In this document: positions 4,762 to 63,512 of the stretch, piece by piece
How positions within the stretch are numbered: the stretch's first letter is position 1
Layout of the letters: each line of letters starts with the position of its first letter
Source of the DNA: Armigeres subalbatus
Lineage: Eukaryota > Arthropoda > Insecta > Diptera > Culicidae
Length of the DNA stretch: 64,000 nt
Direction: 5' to 3'
Assembly (NCBI RefSeq): GCF_024139115.2
Contig: NC_085141.1
Coordinates: forward strand, 246,496,096 to 246,560,095
The notes under the pieces: generated by a model
What the model saw: the letters and a program-made list of their open reading frames with translations, nothing else
Database searches by the model: none
What the model was told of the DNA's origin: nothing
Program-made: the position numbers and the translations under genes

Positions 4762-5400
4762 AAATGATTTGTTTTCTCATCGGTTTCGCAATGTGATGTG
4801 GAAGCTGCTGTGGTAGAGCACTGGATTGAATGTTTTGACTTGTGACGTCACAGACGCTCTGGAAAAACGCCGAAAAAAAAAGTTATTTGTTTTCTTATTG
4901 GTTTGACTTAAACGAGTTAAGGTCACTCCTGACAGAATCCAAGCTTCAAAGTGCTCGCGTTTTCGGGGGCACACCACTCGATACGGAAGCAACGCTCAAC
5001 TGACATTTTTATTTTTTCACGCATGCTGCGACGCAGCAAAGCTGGATCAACAAAAATGACAGTTGTCCGCCGCCTCCGTATCGAGTGGTGTGCCCCCGAA
5101 AACGCGAGCACTTTGAAACTTGGATTCTGTCAGGAGTGACCTTAAAATGTCGAAAGAATTCTGGAGTAGTGCCGAAGCAAATGATTCGTTTTCTCATCGG
5201 TTTCCACTTGTAATATTGAAGGTGCCAGATTGAATGATTTGTTGTTCTTATCGGTTTCGACTAAACATGATTTTTTTTCGGAATAAATTATTTGTTTTCC
5301 TATCGATTTTCTGCTTGTGTTGGCGAAGGTGCTCTGCAAGAGTATCGGATTGTTGCAGCTTTTGATGGTGAAGGTGGTGTAAAAGAGGGGCGGATTGTTC
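4762..5400. repeat. diverged 61-bp-minisatellite-like sequence, split by a MITE
   Basis: Phrases such as aatgatttgttttctcatcg and tcatcggtttccacttgtaa recur at irregular spacing and match the unit of the array at 1-640. The TTAA MITE at 4921-5141 interrupts it. It looks like an old, decayed segment of the same minisatellite. Confidence 0.6.
4921..5141. mobile_element. TTAA-flanked foldback MITE, copy 1
   Basis: Both ends are reverse complements for about 90 bp, starting ggtcactcctgacagaatcc on the left and ending ggattctgtcaggagtgacc on the right. TTAA lies directly outside both ends (4917-4920 and 5142-5145). TTAA duplication is typical of piggyBac-type insertion, but the ends lack the usual CCC. 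The centre holds the small palindrome gctgcgacgcagc. A second copy is at 29442-29654. Confidence 0.85.
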
Positions 5401-8883: not shown

Positions 8884-9209
8884 ACACACGACGGTATTAA
8901 CTTTGACAGATCCTAAAGCACAGCATTTGGATGATCATTCTAAAATGCTTATAATAAATTCTAGACAAAATGTAATTAAAATCGGATTGATGTATGATAC
9001 GGAAAAAGTTCCGAACTTTATGATAGATACATTTTTGGAAAATATTCAAAAAATTGAGATAAGCTTCCAGATATGTAATTCAGAACTTTTTCCGTATCGC
9101 ACATCAATCAGATTTTAAATACATTTTATCTAGAATTTATTATAAGCATTTTAGAATGATCTTCTAAATGCTGTGCTTTAGGATCTGTCAAAGTTAATAC
9201 CGTCGAGTG
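8884..9209. mobile_element. foldback MITE, about 125-130 bp arms
   Basis: Left arm about 8884-9017 pairs with about 9080-9209. Outer ends are acacacgacggtattaactt and aagttaataccgtcgagtgt. The loop is about 62 bp. It lies exactly between the end of the R1 element and a fragment of RTE 5' leader. No coding capacity. Confidence 0.88.
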
Positions 9210-25690: not shown

Positions 25691-25824
25691 CAAATTTGAC
25701 CCGACTGACCGAGCGTCTGTTCACCAAGGAGGTGCGGCTCCAACAGCGTCTGTTCTGGCATCCAGCGGCTGAGTATGAAATGCTATGCCCCAGAAGCTAT
25801 ACCTAAGATGGCAGCCCCATCCCG

Positions 25825-28800
25825 GTGGATAGGGAACCTTGGGCCAACAACATACTGTTCCCGAAACATCAATTTGTTCGAGAATCCGATAATGAAAGAA
25901 TACGGACTGATTTTACGGCGACGACTCTTAGCGCGAAACAACGGACACGAATAGGAACATGGAACGTTTTAACCCTAGCCCAGCAGGGTAAATTGGCACA
26001 ACTTGCCAATGAGGCACGCCGCATGAAGCTTGAGATCCTGGGACTGAGTGAAGTCCGTTGGCCAAACTTTGGAGAACACAGAACGCCGTCAGGACAAGTT
26101 CTGCTATACTCTGGTTTACGAGGTGAACACGCTCCCCGGCATCGCGGAGTTGGCTTCCTACTAAGCGCTCAGGCACACTCTGCGCTTATGAAGTGGGAAC
26201 CTATAAGTGAAAGAATAATCGTTGCCAGATTTAGAACACGGGTCCGAAACCTTACTATAATCCAATGTTATGCGCCAACCGATGCTGCCGATCTGCAAGA
26301 CAAAGAGAACTTCTACAGTCAACTCAATGCCGTCGTAGATAGAATTCCGAAGGGTGATATCAAGACCTGTTGTGGCGACTTCAATGCGAAGATCGGATCC
26401 GACAACTCGAACCATGAGCGCATTATGGGACGCCATGGTCTCGGAGAAATGAGCGAAAACGGAGAGCTGTTCGCAGAATTTTGTGGTAATAACGACATGG
26501 TGATCGGGGGATCGCTCTTCCCTCATCGACCGGTTCACAAGGTCACGTGGGTCTCCCGTGACGGCTTTACAGAAAATCAAATCGACCACATCTGCATCAG
26601 CCGAAAATGGAAACGTAGCCTTCTTGATGTACGGAATAAACGTAGTGCCGATATCGCGTCTGATCATCACCTCCTCATCGGCGAAATACGCCTGCGCATT
26701 GCGCGGATTCGTCGGCAGGAGGAAAGAGTTGGACGACGATTCAACACACGCCGACTGGAAGATGCCACGGTGAAACGGTCCTTCGTTGAAGAACTGGAGA
26801 CGCGTGCTGCAGATATTCCGGAAGGTGGCAGCGTGGAAGACCAATGGACCGCCATCAAGAATGCCTTCATCACCACCAGCGAGAACAATCTGGGCGAACT
26901 ACGCACCCAGAGAAAACAATGGATCACCGATGAGACCTGGAGAAAGATAGAGGAGCAAAGAGAAGCCAAAGCCGCGATAGAGCGATCGAAAACCAGAGGA
27001 GCCAAAGTCTTAGCCCGTCAACGATACGCGGCTCTTGAGAAGGAAGTAAAACGCTCATGTCGACGGGACAAGCGAGCGTGGGCAGACTCTCTGGCCGACG
27101 AAGGAGAGAGAGCTGCCGCAACCGGAGACATTCGCCTCCTCTACGATATCTCACGACGCTTAAGCGGGGCGAAGATGAATGCAACGATGCCTGTGAAAGA
27201 CGCGAATGATCAGTTATTGACCGACCCAACTGATCAGCTGAAACGCTGGTTCGAGCACTTCGAACAACTTTTTCAAGTGCCAGCCAGGCCACCACCACCT
27301 CGGCATGATCTGCCTAGGATCCGACGTATGACGCACATCAATATCGAAGCTGGAGATTCAAACACCCATGCAAAGCATGAAATCGAATAAGCCCCAGGGG
27401 TCGATCGCATATCAGCCAAGATGCTTAAAGCTGACCCAATGACATCCGCTCAACTCAACAACTGCATCGTTTATTTCGTAATATCTGGGACACCGCAACT
27501 TTCCCGGTCGACTGGATGCAAGGTATCTTAGTGAAGGTGCCCAAAAAGGGTGACCTGACTGTATGCGATAACTGGCGAGGCATTATGTTGCTGTGTACCG
27601 TTCTCAAAGTTCTGTGCAAAATTATCCTAGCCCGGATTCAGGAGAAGATCGATGCGACTCTCCGGCGGCAGCAAGCCGGATTCCGTGCCGGAAGATCCTG
27701 TGTAGACCATATTGTCACGCTCCGCATCATTCTGGAGCAGGTCAACGAATTCCAAGAGTCCCTTTACTTGGTATTCATTGACTACGAAAAAGCTTTCGAC
27801 CGTCTCAATCACGAGAATATGTGGGGCGCCCTGAGACGCAAGGGAGTTCCTGAGAAAATCATCGGCCTCATCGAGGCACAGTATGAGGCCTTCTCGTGTA
27901 GAGTGCTGCACAATGGGGACTTGTCCGACCCTATTCGGGTCGTAGCTGGTGTGAGGCAAGGATGTATTCTATCACCGTTAGTTCCTCATCGTAATCGACG
28001 AGATTCTGGTAGATGCGATTGACCGTGAACCAAACCGCGGGCTGTTATGGCAGCCTATAACCATGGAGCACCTAAATGACTTCGAATTGGCGGATGATGT
28101 TGCACTCCTCACGCAACGACGCTCTGATATGCAGAGTAAGCTCAACGACCTTGCCAAGCGCTCCTCTTCGGCAGGTTTTGCCATCAACGTCAACAAAATC
28201 AAATCGTTAGATGTAAACACGGTGACTCCTTCCAGTTTCACAGTAGCCGGGCAACCAGCGGAGAATGTAGAAAGCTTCCAATATCTTGGTAGCCAAATGG
28301 CATCAGACGGCGGTACCAAGATCGACATAGGCGCACGGATAAAGAAAGCAAGGACTGCCTTTGCGAGTTTAAGAAATATCTGGAAAAACAGGCAGATAAG
28401 TGAACGCACCAAAATACGAATTTTCAACTCTAACGTGAAATCTGTGCTGTTATACGCTAGCGAAACATGGTGTGTATCAGTGGAGAACACTCAACGGCTG
28501 CAGGTGTTCATTAACAGATGCCTGCGGTATATAATTCGGGCCTGGTGGCCTCACAACTGGATCTCAATCAACGAGCTCCATCGTCGTTGTCACCAGAGGC
28601 CGATAGCAACAGAAATTCGGGATCGAAAGTGGGGCTGGGTCGGCCACACTCTCATAAGGGCGGAAACGAAATCTGTAAACAAGCATTAGACTGGAACCCA
28701 GAGGAACATCGCAGCAGAGGCAGAACCAGAGGCTCTTGGCGGCGAAGCCTCAATAAAGAAATAAAAGAATTCGACCGATATCTAACCTGGCAACAGGTTA

Positions 28801-29393: not shown

Positions 29394-29441
29394 ACAAAAG
29401 TGTACAAGATGTGTAAATCTCAATACGACTAATGAACTTAA

Positions 29442-29654
29442 GGTCACTCCTGACAGAATCCAAGTTTCAAAGTGCTCGCGTTTTCGGGGGCTCGATACGG
29501 AAGCAACGCACAACTGTCATTTTTATTTTTTCACGCATGCTGCGACGCAGCAAAGCTGAATCAAAAAAATAACAGTTGTCAGCCGCCTCCGTATCGAGTG
29601 GTGTGCCCCCGAAAACCCGAGCACTTTGAAACTTGGATTCTGTCAGGAGTGACC
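29442..29654. mobile_element. TTAA-flanked foldback MITE, copy 2
   Basis: Same family and orientation as 4921-5141. TTAA lies at 29438-29441 and 29655-29658. The left arm lacks about 8 bp (cacaccac) present in copy 1. Confidence 0.88.
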
Positions 29655-29717
29655 TTAACAGGGTAAAACCGACAAAATTAAGCCGTGAGCGACGAACACA
29701 CAACTATGCTACCACGA

Positions 29718-33317: not shown

Positions 33318-33685
33318 GTTAATACTGATTAAAAAATAAAATCTGCAAGCACGGAGTCGAATAATGCAGCACAGTTTTGCTGTTAATGAGATTTTGGCAA
33401 TACGGATGAAATTTTTCCAGGACAAAGAACTTGTTAAAAATGCACATCGGCTGTTGGTGATATCGTGTTCTCTATAGAAAAAGCCTCCTTAAGTAGTATT
33501 AGTTTCTCATAAAGCACGGTGAAGAGTTAAAATCTTCAAAGAAGATTTGTAAACTACGTTACGTTAGTGATGACCTTTGTTTAAACTTAAAAATCACTTT
33601 AATAAAGATTATTTTAAAAAAAACTACGTTACGTGGAAAAGCCTGCTTCTGATTCTACCTGCTCACAATCGATCGAAGAACTTAA

Positions 33686-33925
33686 CCCTTATCCTCCCTT
33701 GATACTTTTTAGGCACTAAAAAAGACTTCAAAAAATCATAACTCCGTTGATTCTCAACCGATTTTGACGATTCACCTACCAAACGAACCGGTTAGGTTTC
33801 TAGTTTTCAAACCTGAGAAGAGAATCGGCATTGGCCACATGGTTCGGGAATAATTCCGGGGTCGAATGGGGTACCTTTTTTCTCAAATAAAATGACCATG
33901 CTAAAAGTTTCAAAACTAATTTTTT
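33686..33925 (+). repeat. outer terminal inverted domain, left
   Basis: Unique domain shared with the right end. Key phrases are aaatcataactccgttgatt, ccaaacgaaccggttaggtt, and gaataattccggggtcga. Only scattered differences separate it from the right copy, so the two ends are recent or co-evolving. Confidence 0.9.
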
Positions 33926-35390
33926 GATGTGTCCTACTTCATGAAATCACGAGACATGTTCAATAGTGCCTGTTCCAAGGTTCCCTGGTGGGTTTGGACA
34001 GGTTCTGCGGCATTCCGGGGACCTGGTTCCCCCAGGACGTGGCCACTTTTCGATTTGATTCGAAACCCATCTTGCGATGTCTCAAACTTCATGATTTTGC
34101 GAAACAAGCTCAATAGAGTCTAATTTGAGGTACCTAAGTGGTTCTGGTCAGGTTCCGTGGCATTCCGAGGACCTGGTTCCCCCGGGGAAGTGGCCACTTT
34201 TTGATTTGATCCAAAACCCTGCTTGCGACGTCTCAAACTTCATAATTTTGCGAAACGAGCTCAATAGAGTCTAATTTGAGGTAGCTGAGTGATTCTGGTC
34301 AGGTTCCGTGGCATTCTGGGGACCTGGTTCCCCCGGGGAAGTGGCCACTTTTTGATTTGATCCGAAACCCTTCTTGCGACGTCTCAAGCTTCATGGTTTC
34401 GCGAAACAAGCTTTAAAGAGTCTAATTTGAGGTAACTGAGTGGTTCTGGTCAGATTCCGTGGCATTCCGGGGACCTGGTTCCCCCGGGGAAGTGGCCGCT
34501 TTTTGATTTGATCCAAAACCCTTCTTGCGACGTCTCAAACTTCATGATTTCGCGAAACGAGCTCAATAGAGTCTAATTTGAGGTACCTGAGTGGTTCTGG
34601 TCAGGTTCCGTGGCATTCCGGGGGCCTGGTTCTCCCGGGGAAGTGACCACTTTTCGTTCTGATTCGAAACCCATCTTGCGACGTCTCAAACTTCATGATT
34701 TCGCGAAACGAGCTCAACAGAGTCTAATTTGAGGCCCCTGAGTGGTGCTGGTCAGGTTGCGTGGCATTCCGGGTGCCTAGCTCCCCCGGGGAAGTGGTCA
34801 CTTTTTGATATGACCTGAAACCCATCTTGCGATGTCTCAAACTTCATAATTTCGCGAAACGTGCTCAATAGTGTCTAATTTGAGGTACCTAAGTGGTTCT
34901 GGTCAGGTTCCGTGGCATTCCGGGGACCTGGTTCCCCCGGGGAAGTGGCTGATTTTTGGATTTGATCCGAAACCCATCTTGCGACGTTTCAAACTTTATG
35001 ATTTTGCGAAACGAGCTCAACAGTCTAATTTGAGGTACCTGAGTGGTGCTGGTTAGGTAACGTGGCATCCCTGGAACCTGGGTCCATCAAGGAAGTGGTC
35101 CCTTTTGATGTGTTCTAAAATCCATTTTGCGACGACTCAAACTTCATGATTTCACGGAACGAGCTCAATTAGAAGGTACTTGAGTGGTGCTAGTCAGGTT
35201 CCGTTGCATCCCGCGATCCTAGTTCCTCCGAGAAATGGCCACTTTTTGCGGTGACGATTTCTTGCGACGTCTCAAACTTCATGACTTCGCGAGACCTGGT
35301 TTTCCCGGGGATGTGGTCATTTTTTAATGTGAACTGAACTGAACAATATTTTGACGTCTCAAACTTCATGATCTCGCGAAACAAGAAGAC
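33926..35390 (-). repeat. 151-bp satellite array, left arm (inverse orientation)
   Basis: The phrase gcgaaacgagctcaa recurs at about 34099, 34251, 34401, 34553, 34704, 34854, 35005 and 35156, i.e. every 150-152 bp. The outermost unit (ccaaggttccctggtgggtt) is matched by the outermost unit of the right arm. Units become more diverged towards the centre. Open frames of about 60 codons inside are satellite translations. Confidence 0.92.
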
Positions 35391-35590
35391 GTTTCTCATT
35401 ATGTCAGTAACCTGGTGCCCTCGGGGATGATTAAACTGCTCTATGTATTCTGAATCCTGAATCATGTAATCTGTAACATGAACAACGAAACATGAAATTC
35501 TAAAATGTTGTACATGCTCTCGAGTATTCTGAGAAATTTTGTACTTCTGGATAGTTTCCACCTTGATATGATACAAGTGATACGATTCAG
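35391..35590. other. centre of the foldback element
   Basis: Orientation of the 151-bp units switches here. It includes tgaatcctgaatcatgtaat and aacatgaacaacgaaacatg. No ORF of note and no transposase remnant. Confidence 0.6.
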
Positions 35591-38145
35591 GATGGGTTTA
35601 AAAACGCATAAAAACCTGCCTGGTAAACCAGATTCCCTGAACGCCACGGAACATAAGATGCACCACTCGAGTATCTTGCAAAAATCTCTATTGAAAATGT
35701 CTTGTGAAACCACGAAGTTTGTCGAGAGATGGGTTTCCGATCACTACAAAAAAAGCCCACATCTCCAAGAGAACCAGGTTCTCAGAATGTCACGAAACCT
35801 GACGAACATCATTCAGATACCTCGAAATAGAATCTATTGAGCTCGTTTCGCTAAATCATGAAGTTTGAGACGTCGCAAGAAGGGTTTCGGATCAAATCAA
35901 AAAGTGGCCACTTCCCCGGGGAAACCAGGTCCCCGGAATGCCACGGAACCTGACCAGAACAACTCAGGTACCTCAAATTAGACTCATTTGAGCTCGTTTC
36001 GCGAAATCATGAAGTTTGAGGCGTCGTAAATTGGGTTTCGGATAAAATCGAAAAGTGCCTACTTGCCCGGAGGAACCAGGTCCCCGGAATGCCACGGAAT
36101 CTGCCCAGAACCACTTAGGTACCTTAAATTAGACTCTATTGAGCTCGTTTCGCGAAATCATGAAGTTTGAGACGTCACAAAATAGGTTTCGGATCAAATC
36201 GAAAAGTGGCCACTTCCCCGGGGGAACCAGGTCCCCGGAATGCCACGGAACCTGACCAGAACAACTCAGGTACCTCAAATTAGACTCTATTGAGCTCGTT
36301 TCGCGAAATCATGAAGTTTGAGGCGTCGTAAATTGGGTTTCGGATCAAATCGAAAAGTGCCTACTTGCCCGGAGGAACCAGGTCCCCGGAATGCCACGGA
36401 ATCTGCCCAGAACCACTTAGGTACCTTAAATTAGACTCTATTGAGCTCGTTTCGCGAAATCATGAAGTTTGAGAGGTCTCAAGATGGTTTTCGGATCAAA
36501 TCGAAAAGTGGCCACTTCCCCGGGGGAACCAGGTCCCCGGAATGCCACGGAACCTGACCAGAACCACTCAGGTACCTCAAATTAGACTCTATTGAGCTCG
36601 TTTCGCTAAATCATGGAGTTTGAGACGTCGCAAGAAGGGTTTCGGATCAAATCGAAAAGCGGCCACCCCCCCGGGGCCACCAGGTCCCCGGAATGCCACG
36701 GAACCTGACCCGAACCACTCAGCTACCTCAAATTAGACTCTATTGAGCTCGTTTCGCTAAATCATGAAGTTTGAGACATCGCAAGAAGGGTTTCGGATCA
36801 AATCGAAAAGTGGCCACTTGCCCGGAGGAACCAGGTCCCCGGAATGCCACGGAATCTGCCCAGAACCACTTAGGTACCTTAAATTAGACTCTATTGAGCT
36901 CGTTTCGCGAAATCATGAAGTTTGAGACGTCGCAAGATGGGTTTCGGATCAAATCGAAAAGTGGCCACTTCCCCGGGGGAACCAGGTCCCCGGAATGCCA
37001 CGGAACCTGACCAGAACCACTTAGGTACCTCAAATTAGACTCTATTGAGCTCGTTTCGCGAAATCATGAAGTTTAAGACGTCGCAAGAAGGGTTTCGGAT
37101 CAAATCGAAAAGTGGCCACTTGCCCGGAGGAACCAGGTCCCCGGAATGCCACGGAATCTGCCCAGAACCACTTAGGTACCTCAAATTAGACTCTATTGAG
37201 CTCGTTTCGCGAAATCATGAAGTTTAAGACGTCGCAAGAAGGGTTTCGGATCAAATCGAAAAGTGGTCACTTGCCCGGAGGAACCAGGTCCCCGTGATGC
37301 CACGGAATCTGCCCAGAACCACTTAGGTACCTCAAATTAGACTCTATTGAGCTCGTTTCGCGAAATCATGAAGTTTGAGACATCGCAAGAAGGGTTTCGG
37401 ATCAAATCGAAAAGTGGCCACTTGCCCGGAGGAACCAGGTCCCCGGAATGCCACGGAATCTGCCCAGAACCACTTAGGTACCTCAAATTAGACTCTATTG
37501 AGCTCGTTTCGCGAAATCATGAAGTTTAAGACGTCGCAAGAAGGGTTTCGGATCAAATCGAAAAGTGGCCACTTGCCCGGAGGAACCAGGTCCCCGGAAT
37601 GCCACGGAATCTGCCCAGAACCACTTAGGTACCTCAAATTAGACTCTATTGAGCTCGTTTCGCGAAATCATGAAGTTTGAGACATCGCAAGAAGGGTTTC
37701 GGATCAAATCGAAAAGTGGCCACTTCCCCGGGGGAACCAGGTCCCCGGAATGCCACGGAACCTGACCAGAACCACTCAGCTACCTCAAATCAGACTCTAT
37801 TGAGCTCGTTTCGCGAAATCATGAAGTTCGAGACATCGCAAGAAGGGTTTCGGATCAAATCGAAAAGTGGCCACTTCCCCGGGGGAACCAGGTCCCCGGA
37901 ATGCCACGGAACCTGACCAGAACCACTTAGGTACCTCAAATTAGACTCTATTGAGCTTGTTTCGCAAAATCATAAAGTTTGAGACATCGCAAGATGGGTT
38001 TCGGATCAAATCGAAAAGTGGCCACGTCCCGGGGGAACCAGGTCCCCGGAATGCCGCAGAACCTGTCCAAATCCACCAGGGAACCTTGGAACAGGCACTA
38101 TTGAACATATCTCGTGATTTCATGAAGTGGGACACATCAAAAAAT
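35591..38145 (+). repeat. 151-bp satellite array, right arm
   Basis: gagctcgtttcg recurs at 35840, 35990, 36141, 36292, 36443, 36594, 36745, 36896, 37047, 37198, 37349, 37500, 37651, 37802 and 37953, a strict 149-151 bp period. Two unit types are recognisable: type A (ttccccgggggaaccagg with cctgaccagaac) and type B (ttgcccggaggaaccagg with tctgcccagaac). Units around 37050-37650 are nearly identical, and A and B alternate between 35880 and 36500. Confidence 0.93.
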
Positions 38146-38380
38146 TAGTTTTAAGACTTTTAGCATGGTCATTTGATTTGGAAAAAAAAGGTACCCCACT
38201 CGACCCCGGAATTATTCCGGAACCAGGTGGCCAATGCCGATTCTCTTCTCAGGTTTGAAAACTAGAAACCTAACCGGTTCGTTTGGTAGGTGAATCGTTA
38301 AAATCGGTTGAGAATCAACGGAGTTATGATTTTTTGAAGTCATTTTTTAGTGCCTAAAAAGTATCAAGGGAGGATAAGGG
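38146..38380 (-). repeat. outer terminal inverted domain, right
   Basis: Inverse counterpart of 33686-33925, ending in gtatcaagggaggataaggg directly before TTAA. Confidence 0.9.
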
Positions 38381-38628
38381 TTAATGTAAAAAATAAGGCA
38401 CATGTAGCAGTCTTCATAAGAGGAATTTGTGAACATTTCTAAATCACAGAGGAATTAGCAGATTCGATTCTTATGAAGGAAACAACTACCGGTATCGACC
38501 TGGGAAAAGATGTTAAGACCTGTACTACCCATGATTTAACATTAAGCTGCAGCAACACGTAGAACTTTTATTATCCAACATGCAAACTATTGAAACAATT
38601 TGGCACAATTGATTGTCGAAAACTGATA

Positions 38629-46375: not shown

Positions 46376-46734
46376 ATGATCACCAACGCAAAACCAGTTT
46401 TATTAAATCCAGGATACTTTCAAGAAGATTTGCTTCGCGTCATTTTACAATCGATCAAGCTTCCTGGACTATAGAGCCCCGGAAAGACCGACGAAGACAA
46501 AATGTTCAAAATCCCGACGTCAACATCTATTTCACCAAAACCACCCCGGAATATAATCAAAATCGAAGCGAGCTCACATGCACTTTCGGTCGGCTTCTTC
46601 GGTCTTTTCTCGGTTCCGCACTGAATTTCAAGGATTCCGCAAGCAATGCATTGGGACTGGAAGGTCGACCTAAGTTGCAGGTAAGTTTTCCCTAATTTTG
46701 ATTGTGTCTCTGAAGTGGTTTTGAAAGGAATCCT

Positions 46735-47815
46735 TCAGAATTCCGACGGAGATCCTTCAGAGATTCTGACGGACATCCTTCAGAGATTCCGACGAGAATC
46801 CTTCAGGGATTCCGATGGGAATCCTTTAGGGATTCCGACGGGAGGGATTCTGACTTGAATCCATTAGGGATTCCGACGAGAATCCTTCAGAAATTCCGAC
46901 AAGAATCCTTCAGAGATTCCGACGGGAATCCTTTAGGGATTCCAACAGAAATCCTTCAGAAATTCCGACGAGAATCCTTCAGAGATTCTGACGAAAATTA
47001 TTCAAGGATTCCGACTAGAATCCTTCAGAGATTCCGACGAGAATCCTTCAGAAATTTCGACGAGAATCCTTCAGCGATTCCGACAAAAATCCTTCAGGGT
47101 TTCCGACGGGAATCTTTCAGAGATTTCGACGGGAACCCTTCAGGGATTTCGACGGGAATCCTTTTGGGATTCCGACGTGAATCCTTCAGGGATTTCCATG
47201 GGAAACCCTTTTGCGATTCCGACGTGAATCCTTCAGGGATTTCCATGGGAATCCTTCAGGAACTCCGACTGGAATCCTTCACGGATTCAGACGGGAATCC
47301 TTCAGGGATTCCGACGGGAATCTTTCAGGGACTCTGACGGGAATCCTTCAAGAATTTCGACAGGAATCCTTTAAGAATTCCGACAGGAATCCTTCAGGGA
47401 TTCCGGCGGGAATCCTTCAGGGATTCCGACGGGAATCCTTCAGAAATTCCGACGGGAATCATTCAGCAATTCCGACCTCAATAGATTCTGACGAGAATCC
47501 TCAATAGATCCTGACGGGAATCCTCAACAGATTCCGACGAAAATCTTCAGAGATTCCGAATGTAATCCTTCAAGGATGCCGACGGGAATCATTTAGGGAT
47601 TTCGACTGGAATTCTTTAGCTCTTTAGACTGAAATTCTCCAAGGATCCCGACGTGAATCCTTCAGGGATTCCGACGGGAATCCTTCATGGGTTCTGACGG
47701 GAATCTTTCATAGATTCTGACGGAAATCCTTCAAGGATTCCGACGATATTCCTTCAGGGATTCCGACGGGAATCATTCAGGGAGTCCGACAGGAATCCTT
47801 TAGGGATTCCAAAGG
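46735..47815. repeat. 23-bp minisatellite
   Basis: About 46 copies of a 23-bp unit close to atccttcagggattccgacg followed by gga. Because 23 is not a multiple of three, three successive units are read in three frames, giving the peptide cycle ILQGFRRE, SFRDSDGN, PSGIPTG. That explains the 160- and 98-codon open frames here, which are not genes. Confidence 0.95.
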
Positions 47816-48526
47816 AAATTGTCTGTGTACTTCCAAAGGATCAAGAAACTGGATTAGCTGTTAATTGCAGGCGAAATTGTTAGCCAAATGCGTAGTTACA
47901 GACTACCAAGGCAATGCACTTCGCTTCATTAAATAAGAAATAATAGTGAAAAAGGAACTGACTATATGGAGAAATAAAATTAAGAAAAACTCTAGCATGC
48001 GCATCAACACACTTAGCACCAGACTAAACTCAAGGAACTAAACGGAAGGAACGAGCACCTAAAAAGGATCGGCAGGTGGAAAAGAAAATTCTATAATCTA
48101 TTTTATTTTTTATTCAAGTTTAATTTCATTTTAATGTACTTTGTTTACAATTATTGTCAAAATAAAACGAAACCGTATTCTCAAATTATTTAATTAAATT
48201 ATTGATGTTTTCAAGAATAATACCTAAATTTCACAAAATTATATTCATACTGCGATCTCAGGAGCTTCATAAGATAAACTTACGAAATTTCATAAGGCTA
48301 CTCTATGGATTTCATTGACAGTTATTATGACACTTATTCGTTCTACTTCATCCAGGAGTTCATTCTATTTCATAAGGCTAACTTATGATTTTCAAACCGA
48401 TTCCTTGAGGCTAATTTTCATAAGGCAAAATTATGAACATCGAAAGGTTTTTTACGGCAGTGTAGATCATCTGCTGTTGACATATAGAAAATAGACTCAT
48501 TTGTCGTAGTCATGGGTTCACTGTTA

Positions 48527-48932: not shown

Positions 48933-49600
48933 AGGCATGGGGTTCAGAACAACAGCAATTAGACTACTCTGATACAAAAATGTTTTCATTGCTCGTGAGT
49001 ATTTTATGAAAATCCAAGGCACTATTAGTGTCATTTGTTGGTCGTGTGTGAATTTCGAACAAAAACATGATCAGAAAAGCTTCTCTGTTTTTAATTTATT
49101 TTTTTAATCGATGAGTTAATTTTTCATTTCTCACCCACTGTGCCTGGTCACTCAGGCCAAAATTTTCCATGTCGATGTCGATGACGAAGTGCTCCGGTAA
49201 TGGATTGATTTGATGAGATTGTTTCAATATGTTTCTACTATAAGATCATGTTTTAACTAAATGCAAACCGTTCGAGAGCCTGATAGAGAAAAATTGCGAA
49301 CAAATTTATCGGCAAAAAATTAGATTAAACAAAGGAAATCGGAAATCGAGAAAAAGGCATCAAATAAAATAGAGTAAAATGTTTTGGATAATTACTGCAT
49401 GGCTCGTTTTGTGTTTTTTGATGAGGGATCGTTATGCATACTGAGCATAAAGTTAGGCACAAATAATCTTTTACTAATTATCATTTCTTGTATTAGCTTA
49501 ATAAATCATGGTCAAGTCCGGAAAATTCAAAATTCATAAATTTAATATGTAGCAAGATTTCAAAACCAGTTTCTAGAAAACGCTTCCAGACCATGTCAAT
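48933..49600. other. unassigned AT-rich sequence
   Basis: No feature recognised. Confidence 0.3.
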
Positions 49601-49609
49601 TTGTGCAAA

Positions 49610-50290
49610 AACTCTCAAAAATGCATCTATTGAGCTTGTCTTTAAAAATCGCGAAGCAATATGGGTATCGAAGCTAACTACTTCCCTGAGGGAACCAGGT
49701 CCCCAGGAACACTTCCGAACGGAGCTAATGGATCTAAACATTCTTTTAAATTAATATACTGAGTTTGTGCGTAGTTTTATTTGTCAAAAGTTGGGATTCA
49801 AGGCGAAATTAAATTTAACCTCTTTCCTGAGAGGACCAGGTTCCCGGGAACACTTTTAGAACTGGCCAATGTATCCAATGTTTTTGAGCTAATCGAATTT
49901 CATCCACTTCTCTGAGGGAACCAGGTTCCCGGGAACAATTCCGGACATGGCCAAAAACTCTCAAAAGTCCATCTATTGAGCTTATCTTTCAAAATCCTGA
50001 TGTTTGATACGTCGCAAGATAGGTTTCGGAGCGAATCGAAATCATCCACTTCCCTGGGGGAACCAGGGGCCTCATTGCGCATCTCCTTTCGACAGCTCTT
50101 TTGTTTGATACTTTGCATAGTTTGCTCGATGCGAGTCGAGGTGCGCAATGCCACCCCAGGTTCCCTTCCGAAAGTAGCTAATGTGTCTTTCGTAATCATG
50201 AAGTTTGATATATCAGAAAATTGGGTTTTACATCAATTGAAAAGTGTTCACTACCCTAGGAAATCTGGTTTCCTGACTTCTGATACTAGT
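49610..50290 (+). repeat. diverged second locus of the 151-bp satellite
   Basis: Matches the right-arm unit of the foldback element: tctattgagctt..ctttcaaaatc, gatacgtcgcaagataggtt, tcggagcgaatcgaaat and cacttccctgggggaaccag. About four to five units remain, with strong point divergence. No outer inverted domains are visible here. An 88-bp MITE interrupts one unit. Confidence 0.85.
50068..50155. mobile_element. 88-bp MITE within diverged satellite
   Basis: ggcctcattgcgcatctc and gaggtgcgcaatgccacc are near inverse copies. ccagg is duplicated at 50063-50067 and 50156-50160. Removing it restores the satellite text ggggaaccagg-ttccc. Confidence 0.82.
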
Positions 50291-50631: not shown

Positions 50632-50780
50632 CTGAATTGCTTTGTTTTCTCCTGCAAATTCGTCACCAGCGTACGCCTCAGCGGTGCCGGAGAAGTACCG
50701 GGTGAATCCGTTGAAGCTTGTTGTTGTTGCTGCTGCTGCGCCACGATCGCGCGCGCCAAAACAAGATCTTCTTCCCTCAT
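50632..50780 (-). CDS. candidate host gene first coding exon, polyglutamine
   Basis: ATG at 50780-50778 (atc before it, so A at -3) opens 49 codons plus two bases: MREEDLVLARAIVAQ, then seven glutamines (mixed CAG/CAA), ASTDSPGTSPAP, LRRTLVTNLQEKTKQF. It ends at cag|gtaggg, a good 5' splice site at 50632/50631. An in-frame TAA 13 codons upstream of the ATG fixes the start. Codon use and amino-acid order look like real protein. No domain is recognised; later exons would lie at lower coordinates beyond repeat-filled intron, and I cannot identify them. Confidence 0.55.
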
Positions 50781-59073: not shown

Positions 59074-59254
59074 TGCGACGGCACATTGCCATTCCTTTTT
59101 TCACCCGCATTCGTACGGGAGAGCGTTGAACAAAGCACGATGCATTTTGAAATTGCTATACATGAGTATGTGATATAGGGTATTTGTGTTTTTCTTAGCG
59201 CATGACTTAGCGCATTAGCAATAAGACATGAGAAAAGTTATGTATGACGTTTAA

Positions 59255-59520
59255 GGTGATTATAGAATGAAGCTCGTGGTGAATTTCAAATTCACCACAC
59301 GTTTATCTTCATACATTTCCAAAAGCCCAAATATGGCGTAACAGTTTTCGTACAGTGTCGAAACTCAAATTATGATTGTTCAGCTTAACTAAGCAAACGA
59401 TCTACCATTATTACAGCCCCATACGCGTTATGGTTCTTTCATCTCGTGCGCTTGAAAAAAATATTGGTAAAGCACGTGGTTTACAAAATGGCCGATTTCT
59501 GGCTTCATTCTATAATCACC
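59255..59520. mobile_element. TTAA-flanked MITE (ggtgattatag ends)
   Basis: ggtgattatagaatgaagc and gcttcattctataatcacc are exact inverse copies, with TTAA at 59251-59254 and 59521-59524. A further small palindrome gtggtgaatttcaaattcac lies inside. The family differs from the TTAA MITE at 4921. Confidence 0.93.
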
Positions 59521-59524
59521 TTAA

Positions 59525-61492: not shown

Positions 61493-61859
61493 ACTTTGCA
61501 GCCTCCCGCGGAATGGTAGTCCGAAGCACCTTCTTTCCCCGCAAAAATATCCACAAGGCCACATGGAGATCACCTAACCAAGAAACGGAAAACATTGGTA
61601 GCACCGCAACCGCTGCACTTGGCACGGTGCCCCCGGATCAGAGAAACGACTGATATGACGGCGAATGTGAGCAGTTAAAGGAAGAGAAGAATGCAGCATG
61701 GGGGGCGCACGAGGGCGAACGAGGCACGATATAAATAGGCGCGGAACAGACAAAACTCGATTTTCCGGAGGAAAAAGCGCCAGCAGGAAGATCGAGACCG
61801 TGAAGAGACGGAGCAACTGTACCGCGCTAATAACACACGAAAGTTCTATGAGAAGTTAA

Positions 61860-63512
61860 ACCGTTCACGTAAGGGCCACATGCCACAGCCTGATATGTGT
61901 AAGAACATAAACGGGAACCTTCTAACGAACGAGCGTGAGGTGATCCAAAGATGGCGGCAGCACTACAAAGAACACCTGAATGGCGATGTGGCAGACGAAG
62001 ATGGCGGTATGGTGATGGACCTTGGAGAACGCGCGTAGGACACAATTCTACCGGCTCCGGATCTCCAGGAAATCCAGGAGGAGATTGGCCGGCTGAAAAA
62101 CAACAAAGCCCTGGGGTTGACCAACTACCAGGAGAGCTATTTAAACACGGTGATGAGGCACTGGCTAGAGCGCTGCACTGGGTCATTACCAAGATTTGGG
62201 AGAAGGAAGTTTTGCCGCAGGAGTGGATGGAAGGTGTCGTGTGTCCCAACTACAAAAAGGGCGATAAGCTGGATTGTAGCAACTACCACGCAATAACATT
62301 GCTGAATACCGCCTACAAGGTGCTCTCCCAAATTTTATGCCATCGGCTAGCACTAACTGCGAGGAAGTTCGTGGGGTTTATGGGCGAACGCTCCACCACG
62401 TACCAGGTGTTCGCCATTCGCCAAGTACTGCAGAAATGCTGCGAATACAACGTGCCAACATATCATCTATTCATCGACTTCAAAGCAGCATATGATACAA
62501 TCGATCGGGACCAGCTATGGCAGCTAATGCACGAACACGAGTTTCAGGGGCATTCTCGAGTCCCTTCGAAACCCACAGAGGGTTACGGCAAGGTGATGAT
62601 CTTTCGTGTCTGCTATTCAACATCGCTTTGGAAGGGGTAATACGAAGAGCAGGGATTAACACGGGTAGTACAATTTTCAAAAAGTCCGTCCAGCTATTTG
62701 GCTTCGCCGACGACATAGATATTATGGCACGTAACTTTGAGAAGATGGACGAAGCCTACATCAGACTGAAGAGGGAAGCCAAGCGGATCGGACTAGTCAG
62801 TAACACGTCGAAGACGAAGTACATGATAGGAAGAGGTTCAAGAGAAGACAATGTGAGCCACCCACCGCGAGTTTGCATCGGTGGTGACGAAATAGAGGTG
62901 GTAGTAGAATTTGTGTACTTGGGCCCACTGGTGACTGTCGAAAATGATACCAGCAGAGAAATTCGGAGACGCATAGTGGCTGGAAATCGTACGTACTTTG
63001 GACTCCGCAAGACACTCCGATCGAATAGAGTTCGCCGCCGTACCAAACTGACAATCTACAAAACGCTCATTAGACCGGTAGTTCTCTACGGACACGAGAC
63101 CTGAACGATGCTCCTGGAGGACCAACGCGCACTTGGAGTTTTCGAAAGGAAAGTGCTGCGTACCATCTATGGTGGGGTGCAGATGGCGGACAGTACGTGG
63201 AGGAGGCGAATGAACCACGAGTTGCATCAGCTGCTGGGAGAACCATCCATCGTTCACACCGTGAAAATCGGATGACTGCGATGGGCCGGGCACGTAGCCA
63301 GAATGTCGGATAGTAACCCGGTGAAAATGGTTCTCGACAACGATCCGACGGGCACAAGAAGGCGAGGTGCGCAGCGGGCAAGGTGGATCGATCAGGTGGA
63401 AGATGACTTGCGGACCCTACGTAGACTGCGTGTTTGGCGACGTGTAGCCATGGACCGAGCCGAATGGAGAAGACTCTTATATACCGCACAGGCCACTTCG
63501 GCCTTAGTCTGA
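61860..63512 (+). pseudogene. RTE family B reverse transcriptase, broken
   Basis: Segment 61951-62640: WMEGVVCPNYKKGDKLDCSN, TLLNTAYKVLSQILCHRL, HLFIDFKAAYDTIDRDQLW. After a deletion and frameshift near 62540, 62560-63104 reads HRGLRQGDDLSCLLFNIALE, LFGFADDIDIMARNF, KTKYMIGRG, YLGPLVTVENDTSREIRRRI, KLTIYKTLIRPVVLYGHET. A TGA follows at 63102, then ALGVFERKVLRTIYGGVQ, a stop near 63272, and LRWAGHVARMSDSNPVKMVL through WRRVAMDRAEWRRLLYTAQ. FADD is intact. Confidence 0.9.

Follow-up and report, generated by a model that had tools for sequence, protein, structure and literature searches.

What kind of transposon carries long inverted arms built from a 151-bp tandem repeat, and where did the arms come from? 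This question is raised by a locus of the mosquito Armigeres subalbatus (assembly GCF_024139115.2, contig NC_085141.1, positions 246,496,096 to 246,560,095), analyzed here as one stretch of 64,000 nucleotides, the window. The initial annotation of this stretch had described a foldback transposon with TTAA flanks, piggyBac-like ends and satellite arms. Taken as a whole, the best explanation places the element in the piggyBac superfamily as a non-autonomous foldback transposon, with a probability of about 0.92. This assignment now comes from homology and not from the terminal signature alone: a sister family, with like ends and inverted arrays, codes for a piggyBac transposase. The family of the window element is designated F1 and the transposase-coding sister family F2. 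Because F2 has a like build and codes for a piggyBac transposase, the window element is considered a piggyBac foldback, a counterpart of Galileo.

The element body (33686-38380) is 4695 bp long and has TTAA on either side. Its parts are as follows, where TIR is the terminal inverted repeat, TRF is Tandem Repeats Finder, and ORF is an open reading frame.

33682..33685, no strand: TTAA target-site duplication, left (sequence)
33686..33906, + strand: left outer (flanking) domain of the TIR, starting CCCTTATCCTCC (96% to the right domain; 38 bp of terminal identity)
33907..34029, + strand: diverged partial monomer fixed in the TIR, left (nhmmer 1.3e-14; 97% to the right counterpart; ~72% to the array consensus)
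34030..35227, + strand: left array (arm A), ~8 monomers of ~151 bp (TRF, nhmmer)
35228..35386, + strand: decayed inner monomers of arm A (monomer comparison; inner part covered by the centre query)
35387..35625, no strand: centre, without a transposase frame, conserved among copies (copy alignment, ORF view)
35626..35770, - strand: decayed inner monomer of arm B (monomer comparison)
35771..38034, - strand: right array (arm B), 15 monomers of 151 bp, several near-identical (TRF, monomer comparison)
38035..38150, - strand: diverged partial monomer fixed in the TIR, right (monomer comparison)
38151..38380, - strand: right outer domain of the TIR (comparison with the left domain)
38381..38384, no strand: TTAA target-site duplication, right (sequence)

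The TTAA flanks and the exact inverted termini are thus as first described, and the termini are identical over 38 bp without a mismatch. The outer domains of about 230 bp are indeed inverted and 96% alike, but they are not unique sequence throughout; the inner ~116-123 bp are a diverged monomer. The long inverted ends made of tandem repeats place the element in the foldback structural class. As a rule, piggyBac ends begin with CCC. CCCTTATCC opens the element at each end, and the element thus has inverted CCC ends. For bee piggyBac elements, passages of PMC10140906 name CCC/GGG and report CAC in many elements.

There is no transposase frame in the window element, whose longest ORF is at most 135 amino acids in the ORF view. 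The centre contains a faint trace of another decayed monomer (2 of 500 shuffles were equally good). No Rfam family matches the window element at the gathering score, and RNA folding of a 303-base array stretch was no better than that of shuffles (z -0.28). Scans for exact patterns in viral contigs and prokaryote genome contigs gave no match, as expected for a mosquito repeat.

TRF reports a period of 151 at 33984-35292 (8.8 copies) and at 35771-38076 (15.3 copies), head-to-head. The monomer model gives 11 matches on the left and 17 on the right when partial and decayed units are counted, a fair agreement with the earlier estimate of about 10 and 17 units facing each other. Full units number 7 and 16 at a minimum of 140 bp, and 8 and 15 by monomer boundaries. 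The mean identity is 88.0% among 7 left monomers, 93.0% among 14 right monomers, and 89.5% between left and right. The first array monomers of both arms are 97% alike and have three variants private to them (22 units compared). A tree of 26 units, which leaves out two short decayed units, intermixes the arms (7 changes against a shuffled mean of 7.6), and its bootstrap is not settled. Near-duplicates are present in the right arm, where R04, R06, and R07 are 98-99% alike and a 215-bp exact run occurs at an offset of 453. The origin of whole arms by one inverted duplication was dropped because mirror order is confined to the outermost units; same-rank pairs across the arms are 89.5% identical at offset 0 against 88.4% at offset 1.

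F1 is present at many other loci, as the search of the genome with the outer domain, proposed earlier, revealed. The assembly comprises 2076 contigs with 1,335,692,571 bases in total; three contigs measure 319, 465, and 430 Mb. The 239-bp outer-domain query gave 314 candidates, and all 40 that were scored match at 93-100%, both ends of the window element among them. The genome contains 98 exact matches to the 20-bp end and 0 to its backwards pattern, which places the pattern far beyond chance. The end stands directly after TTAA in 85 of the 98 cases; flanks other than TTAA, which would have spoken against the initial annotation, are thus not the rule for these ends. Twenty F1 regions were fetched, of which 13 contained a complete pair of ends and 7 surrounded a single match. 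Seventeen two-ended elements, including that of the window, were compared; L047-L050 are truncated or fragmentary, and L001-L030 stand outside this copy-by-copy analysis. Six further two-ended copies were picked by a TTAA-containing end pattern and are hence a biased sample. TTAA is on both sides in 22 of the 23 two-ended copies: 16 of the 17, and all six of those chosen by the TTAA-containing pattern. The exception is L039, whose right flank is TTGT. F1 inserts precisely at TTAA with duplication.

Empty sites, where the earlier proposal was to look for the TTAA duplication, were found in part. When the flanks of L043 are joined at a single TTAA, the alignment crosses the junction both to L032:3941-4302 (91% over 363 positions) and to 61706-62042 of the window (89% over 337 positions), and the 120 bp surrounding the site contain no gap. 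One further alignment of L043, the most distant of the three, takes a consistent course, as do the two weaker ones of L032 (70% over 200, 77% over 74). The sites of L043 (clear) and L032 (weaker) are paralogous repeats and not allelic. No empty site for the window copy itself was found within the window. The alignment over the junction thus held, but not the expected TTAA, since the site reads GTAA for the L043 flanks and other bases for those of L032.

Monomer matches per arm range from 0 to 13 in arm A (the left type) and from 3 to 30 in arm B (the right type) among the 17 copies. The centre query, including the inner part of 35228..35386, aligns in 16 of them, the window included, at 86-100%. 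Apart from inserts in L032 and L034, other copies cover 99-100% of each copy. L044 is an 811-bp derivative. The A-ends of L033, L034, and L035, on three chromosomes, are identical across the ~228 bp compared, suggesting recent movement.

The transposase domain PF13843 has at least 124 matches in the genome, with 116 of 207 candidates scored. The F2 ends were located with the 14-mer TTAACCCTTATCCT, which occurs 138 times (reversed control 8); one pair among the first 100 places listed brackets a transposase. Among the matches listed there are eight pairs and five single F2 ends (21 ends), of which the L060 pair and the L061 single end were read. L060 is 5.9 kb long, with TTAA on either side and one full monomer per arm. 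L061 and L062 together make up a 7.4-kb element, also with TTAA on either side, with one mismatch in the 30-bp right end, 8 monomers on the left and 10 on the right. F1 and F2 have TTAA+CCCTTATCCTC in common, that is, the terminal 15 bp including TTAA. The outer domains of F1 and F2 are homologous (nhmmer ~1e-21), and the inverted F2 arrays consist of 149-bp monomers that are ~67-69% identical to the F1 arrays.

Three open frames sit between the F2 arms, separated by two short stop-containing stretches. PF13843 is matched in three pieces in L061, 1-178 (1e-36), 183-293 (4.9e-21), and 297-349 (1.3e-6), and likewise in L060, 1-145, 183-293, and 297-349. The first frame ends with the donor-like ACAG/GTAAGT in both copies. 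This donor and the stop-bearing stretches between the frames make it likely that the F2 transposase gene has three exons joined by splicing. The first frame of L061 aligns to 6x67, which we take to be T. ni piggyBac, with 6.2e-18, its DE aligned to the DE of 6x67, and to piggyBat 9c0f with 5.9e-15. The second frame contains DNF, presumably the second catalytic Asp, and the third contains several CxxC motifs, presumably of the cysteine-rich domain. Relatives of the F2 transposase at 59% are found in Culex pipiens pallens, where they are named piggyBac transposable element-derived protein 4-like. Three of the 21 F2 ends, from two elements, are within 12 kb of a PF13843 match. The traits of piggyBac are thus observed: TTAA duplication, CCC inverted ends, and, in F2 and not in the window element, a PF13843 transposase. 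As for a piggyBac transposase copy sharing the ends, which the initial annotation had proposed to seek, F2 supplies one with the same terminal 15 bp and a related outer domain, but none was found within F1.

Not every piggyBac of the Armigeres subalbatus genome has the foldback build. Another piggyBac, L053 (C1554:19400-23000), with TTAA-CCCTCTACTTCCCA ends and ORFs of 375 and 292 amino acids, has no arrays and no F1-type outer domain. The piggyBac genes L051 and L052 showed no recognizable ends in the stretch fetched, and no arrays or F1-type outer domain there.

How the arrays are inherited was seen from the closest relatives of 329 full monomers of the 17 copies. The closest relative is in the same arm of another copy for 255, in the same arm of the same copy for 48, in the other arm of another copy for 18, and in the other arm of the same copy for 8. 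The dominance of the first class indicates that the arrays travel with the element. Arm A monomers are 88.2% identical within and 89.3% between copies; arm B monomers are 87.1% and 86.6%. Array length changes after insertion. L054 and L055 (C2:50.37 and 50.59 Mb), 0.22 Mb apart and in opposite orientation, have both flanks in common (80-85%), with 5 versus 8 monomer matches. They are probably the same insertion in a duplicated segment, and their common flanks and unlike monomer counts are the basis for this change of length. The outer-domain tree parts A ends from B ends (5 changes versus a shuffled mean of 11.5), although a few ends, including the A end of the window, fall outside their own cluster.

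Several observations weigh against an F1 that is moved by a piggyBac transposase and inherits its arrays as a unit. None of the 85 F1 ends has a PF13843 match within 12 kb, given the 116 of 207 candidates scored, and no transposase-coding copy of F1 itself was found. The ends of F1 and F2 diverge beyond the common 11 bp. The F1 centre is not a remnant of the F2 interior, with which only a 19-bp match is found; F1 as a simple deletion derivative of F2 was ruled out because the centre is not common to F2. The empty sites read GTAA or other bases and not TTAA. Some within-copy homogenization exists, with 13% of best matches in the same copy versus 6% with shuffled copy labels, but it is the smaller part. 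Outer domains are equally alike within a copy (95.2%) and between copies (A-B 95.3%), and so are the arms (87.6% versus 87.3%). Because A and B ends are mostly apart in the tree and the outer domains are no closer within a copy, exchange of sequence between the two ends appears to occur at most occasionally.

The divergence of the ends bears on the question of which transposase moves F1. It is nearly an even chance that F1 is moved by an autonomous partner of its own, now lost or unsampled, rather than by the F2 transposase. In favor of such a partner, the ends of the two families match over just 11 bp after TTAA and the outer domains over 157 of 221 aligned bases; nothing speaks directly against it. 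In other systems, piggyBac transposases tolerate short terminal identity. Membership in another TTAA-targeting superfamily is extremely improbable. Sola3 is one such superfamily and Kolobok is another. Kolobok also targets TTAA, so TTAA alone is not diagnostic of piggyBac, but its ends are RR (AG..) according to passages of PMC6004289, and the window element with its TTAA has CCC ends instead. F2 codes for a piggyBac transposase, which already refutes Kolobok for F2, and L053 of the same genome also starts with TTAA-CCCT. The last doubt concerns the assembly, in which one array could have been collapsed or duplicated in inverse. Inverted arrays are a known assembly trap. Yet the two arms are unlike in sequence and length, 22 other two-ended copies stand at other sites with unlike flanks (except L054/L055), and paralogous empty sites exist. 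An artefact, the second way in which the initial annotation could have failed, is therefore very unlikely, and we give it practically no weight.

The initial annotation further proposed that a non-autonomous element had become satellite-generating. This part is not supported. The arms are present in transposase-coding relatives, which argues that they are not merely a product of gene loss, and long free arrays are absent from the places listed. One 25-mer of the monomer has 218 exact occurrences in the assembled genome, 113 of them within the 27 loci read (the 20 fetched F1 regions, the window, and the six TTAA-pattern copies). Among the places listed, the first 100 of the 218, which cover C1 and part of C2, 91 are within 10 kb of a listed F1 or F2 end and the longest cluster is 5.9 kb; no long free 151-bp array is found there. 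C2:145133649-145139606, beside an outer-domain match, has the most exact monomer matches (15) among those listed. The window contains one array apart from the element.

49582..50259, - strand: relic array of a related monomer, with no outer domain detected nearby (nhmmer)

The relic scores 3.8e-19 in nhmmer with the F1 model on the whole window; in an excerpt it scores 7.7e-21 with the F1 model and 5.7e-18 with the F2 model. By eye, it is interrupted near 50068-50160 by an apparent small hairpin insert. Also by eye, an apparent first coding exon, which contains a run of glutamines and a splice donor, lies at 50632-50780 on the minus strand; this reading would place the relic array in an intron.

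Could a pre-existing 151-bp genomic satellite have been captured by a piggyBac miniature inverted-repeat transposable element (MITE), so that the inverted arms are satellite insertions? The relic array at 49.6-50.26 kb, without an outer domain, would fit such a history, and so would the other nine of the 100 listed monomer matches, which are single and more than 10 kb from a listed end. The TIR itself, however, contains a fixed diverged monomer, and copies agree at 95-96% in the first array monomer versus 87-89% in the arrays. The F1 outer domain and the monomer have five 8-mers in common (shuffled mean 0.44, maximum 4), though their local alignment is weak (39 of 500 shuffles equally good on the left, 3 of 500 on the right). 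F2 has the same inverted arrangement, and no long free array is among the places listed. Satellite capture is thus improbable, though less so than a Kolobok origin.

For the piggyBac foldback, the following course of events can be proposed. The arrays would have begun when, before F1 and F2 split, a piece of the TIR was duplicated in tandem; we infer this origin of the monomer because of the five common 8-mers and the diverged monomer fixed in the TIR. A piggyBac transposase, from F2 or from an unsampled closer partner, would cut and paste F1 in trans, with recognition via the common terminal CCCTTATCCTC. Unequal crossing-over or slippage would alter array length, and gene conversion may occasionally exchange sequence between the two ends.

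The retention of inverted arrays in F1 and F2, although outer domains and monomers diverge by ~30%, is suggestive, though no proof, of a role for the arms in transposition. A bolder conjecture, by analogy with Galileo, is that the tandem arms are a working part of this piggyBac lineage and that each monomer may give extra transposase-binding sites. Against it, no single 7-mer recurs in the outer domains and the monomers of both F1 and F2; a common site would therefore be degenerate or family-specific. This result slightly lowered our estimate, and the conjecture is now rather unlikely. If it is true, the piggyBac transposase would use arrays of sites, and not short ends, for its assembly.

Other repeats are observed in the window. 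Near-palindromic element copies at 4917-5145 (229 bp) and 29438-29658 (221 bp) have TTAA at both ends and termini GGTCACTCCTGACA; to judge from these features they are another TTAA-targeting MITE family. Two more TTAA-flanked inverted-repeat elements, with different ends, are at 8897-9197 and 59251-59524. A 1.1-kb minisatellite with a 23-bp unit occupies 46729-47819. For the retrotransposon ORF at 25807-27387, the top three relatives come from Malaya genurostris (80-87%), and further ones from Culex.

Gene transfer in insects and mammals relies heavily on piggyBac, whose ends are usually regarded as short. With a natural family whose repeat ends reach kilobase length, it becomes possible to test what end architecture does. 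Copies with common flanks and unlike array length permit the gain and loss of monomers to be measured. In the open-access literature, as judged on titles, the starts of abstracts, and passages, no description of a piggyBac foldback was found; subscription papers and Repbase reports lie outside this scope. Other foldbacks of the Mutator or P type, such as FB and Galileo, have target-site duplications (TSDs) of 7-9 bp. Neither the longer TSD nor the matching transposase is found here: the TSD is the 4-bp TTAA and the relative carries PF13843.

The comparisons below follow passages of the papers cited. Among TTAA-targeting elements, the bee piggyBacs resemble F1 and F2 in TTAA, in the piggyBac transposase, and in long TIRs (~200-490 bp in a few bee species); tandem-repeat arms are not mentioned in those passages (PMC10140906). 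The coral CMITEs are also TTAA-targeting, non-autonomous, and tied to tandem repetition, but they form arrays of whole elements, and inverted arrays are not described in the passages concerned (PMC2872659). Xmix and Xstir of Xenopus are TTAA-targeting non-autonomous elements linked with tandem repetition; Xmix differs in that an internal segment is amplified and in its placement in Kolobok, and the passages describe no inverted arrays (PMC6004289).

The closest likenesses in build belong to other superfamilies. Tetris, a foldback of Drosophila virilis, has inverted TIRs in which an outer flanking domain precedes tandem repeats (~220 bp), with a short stretch common to the domain and the repeat; its middle is variable, its arrays change in length, and the element contains no transposase (PMC4079207). 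It differs from F1 in its TSD of 8-10 bp, in its assignment to Mutator by its authors, in that no coding partner was found in that account, and in that its repeats also occur in long free satellite arrays, which were not seen for F1 (PMC4079207). Muta1 of Aedes aegypti is likewise from a mosquito, is coding, and is called a "type 2 foldback" with subterminal tandem repeats in the TIR, but it is of the Mutator superfamily, with a TSD of 8-9 bp and 12-bp repeats (PMC5225508). Galileo of Drosophila has long, internally repetitive inverted ends and a coding family with shorter copies too; in contrast to F1 and F2, it belongs to the P-element superfamily with a THAP transposase, and its repeats were shown to contain binding sites, which for F1 and F2 is conjecture only (PMC3573991, PMC3688188). 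With repeat-armed foldbacks known in Mutator and P, piggyBac, with a coding member, is a third group of DNA transposons in which the same build has evolved.

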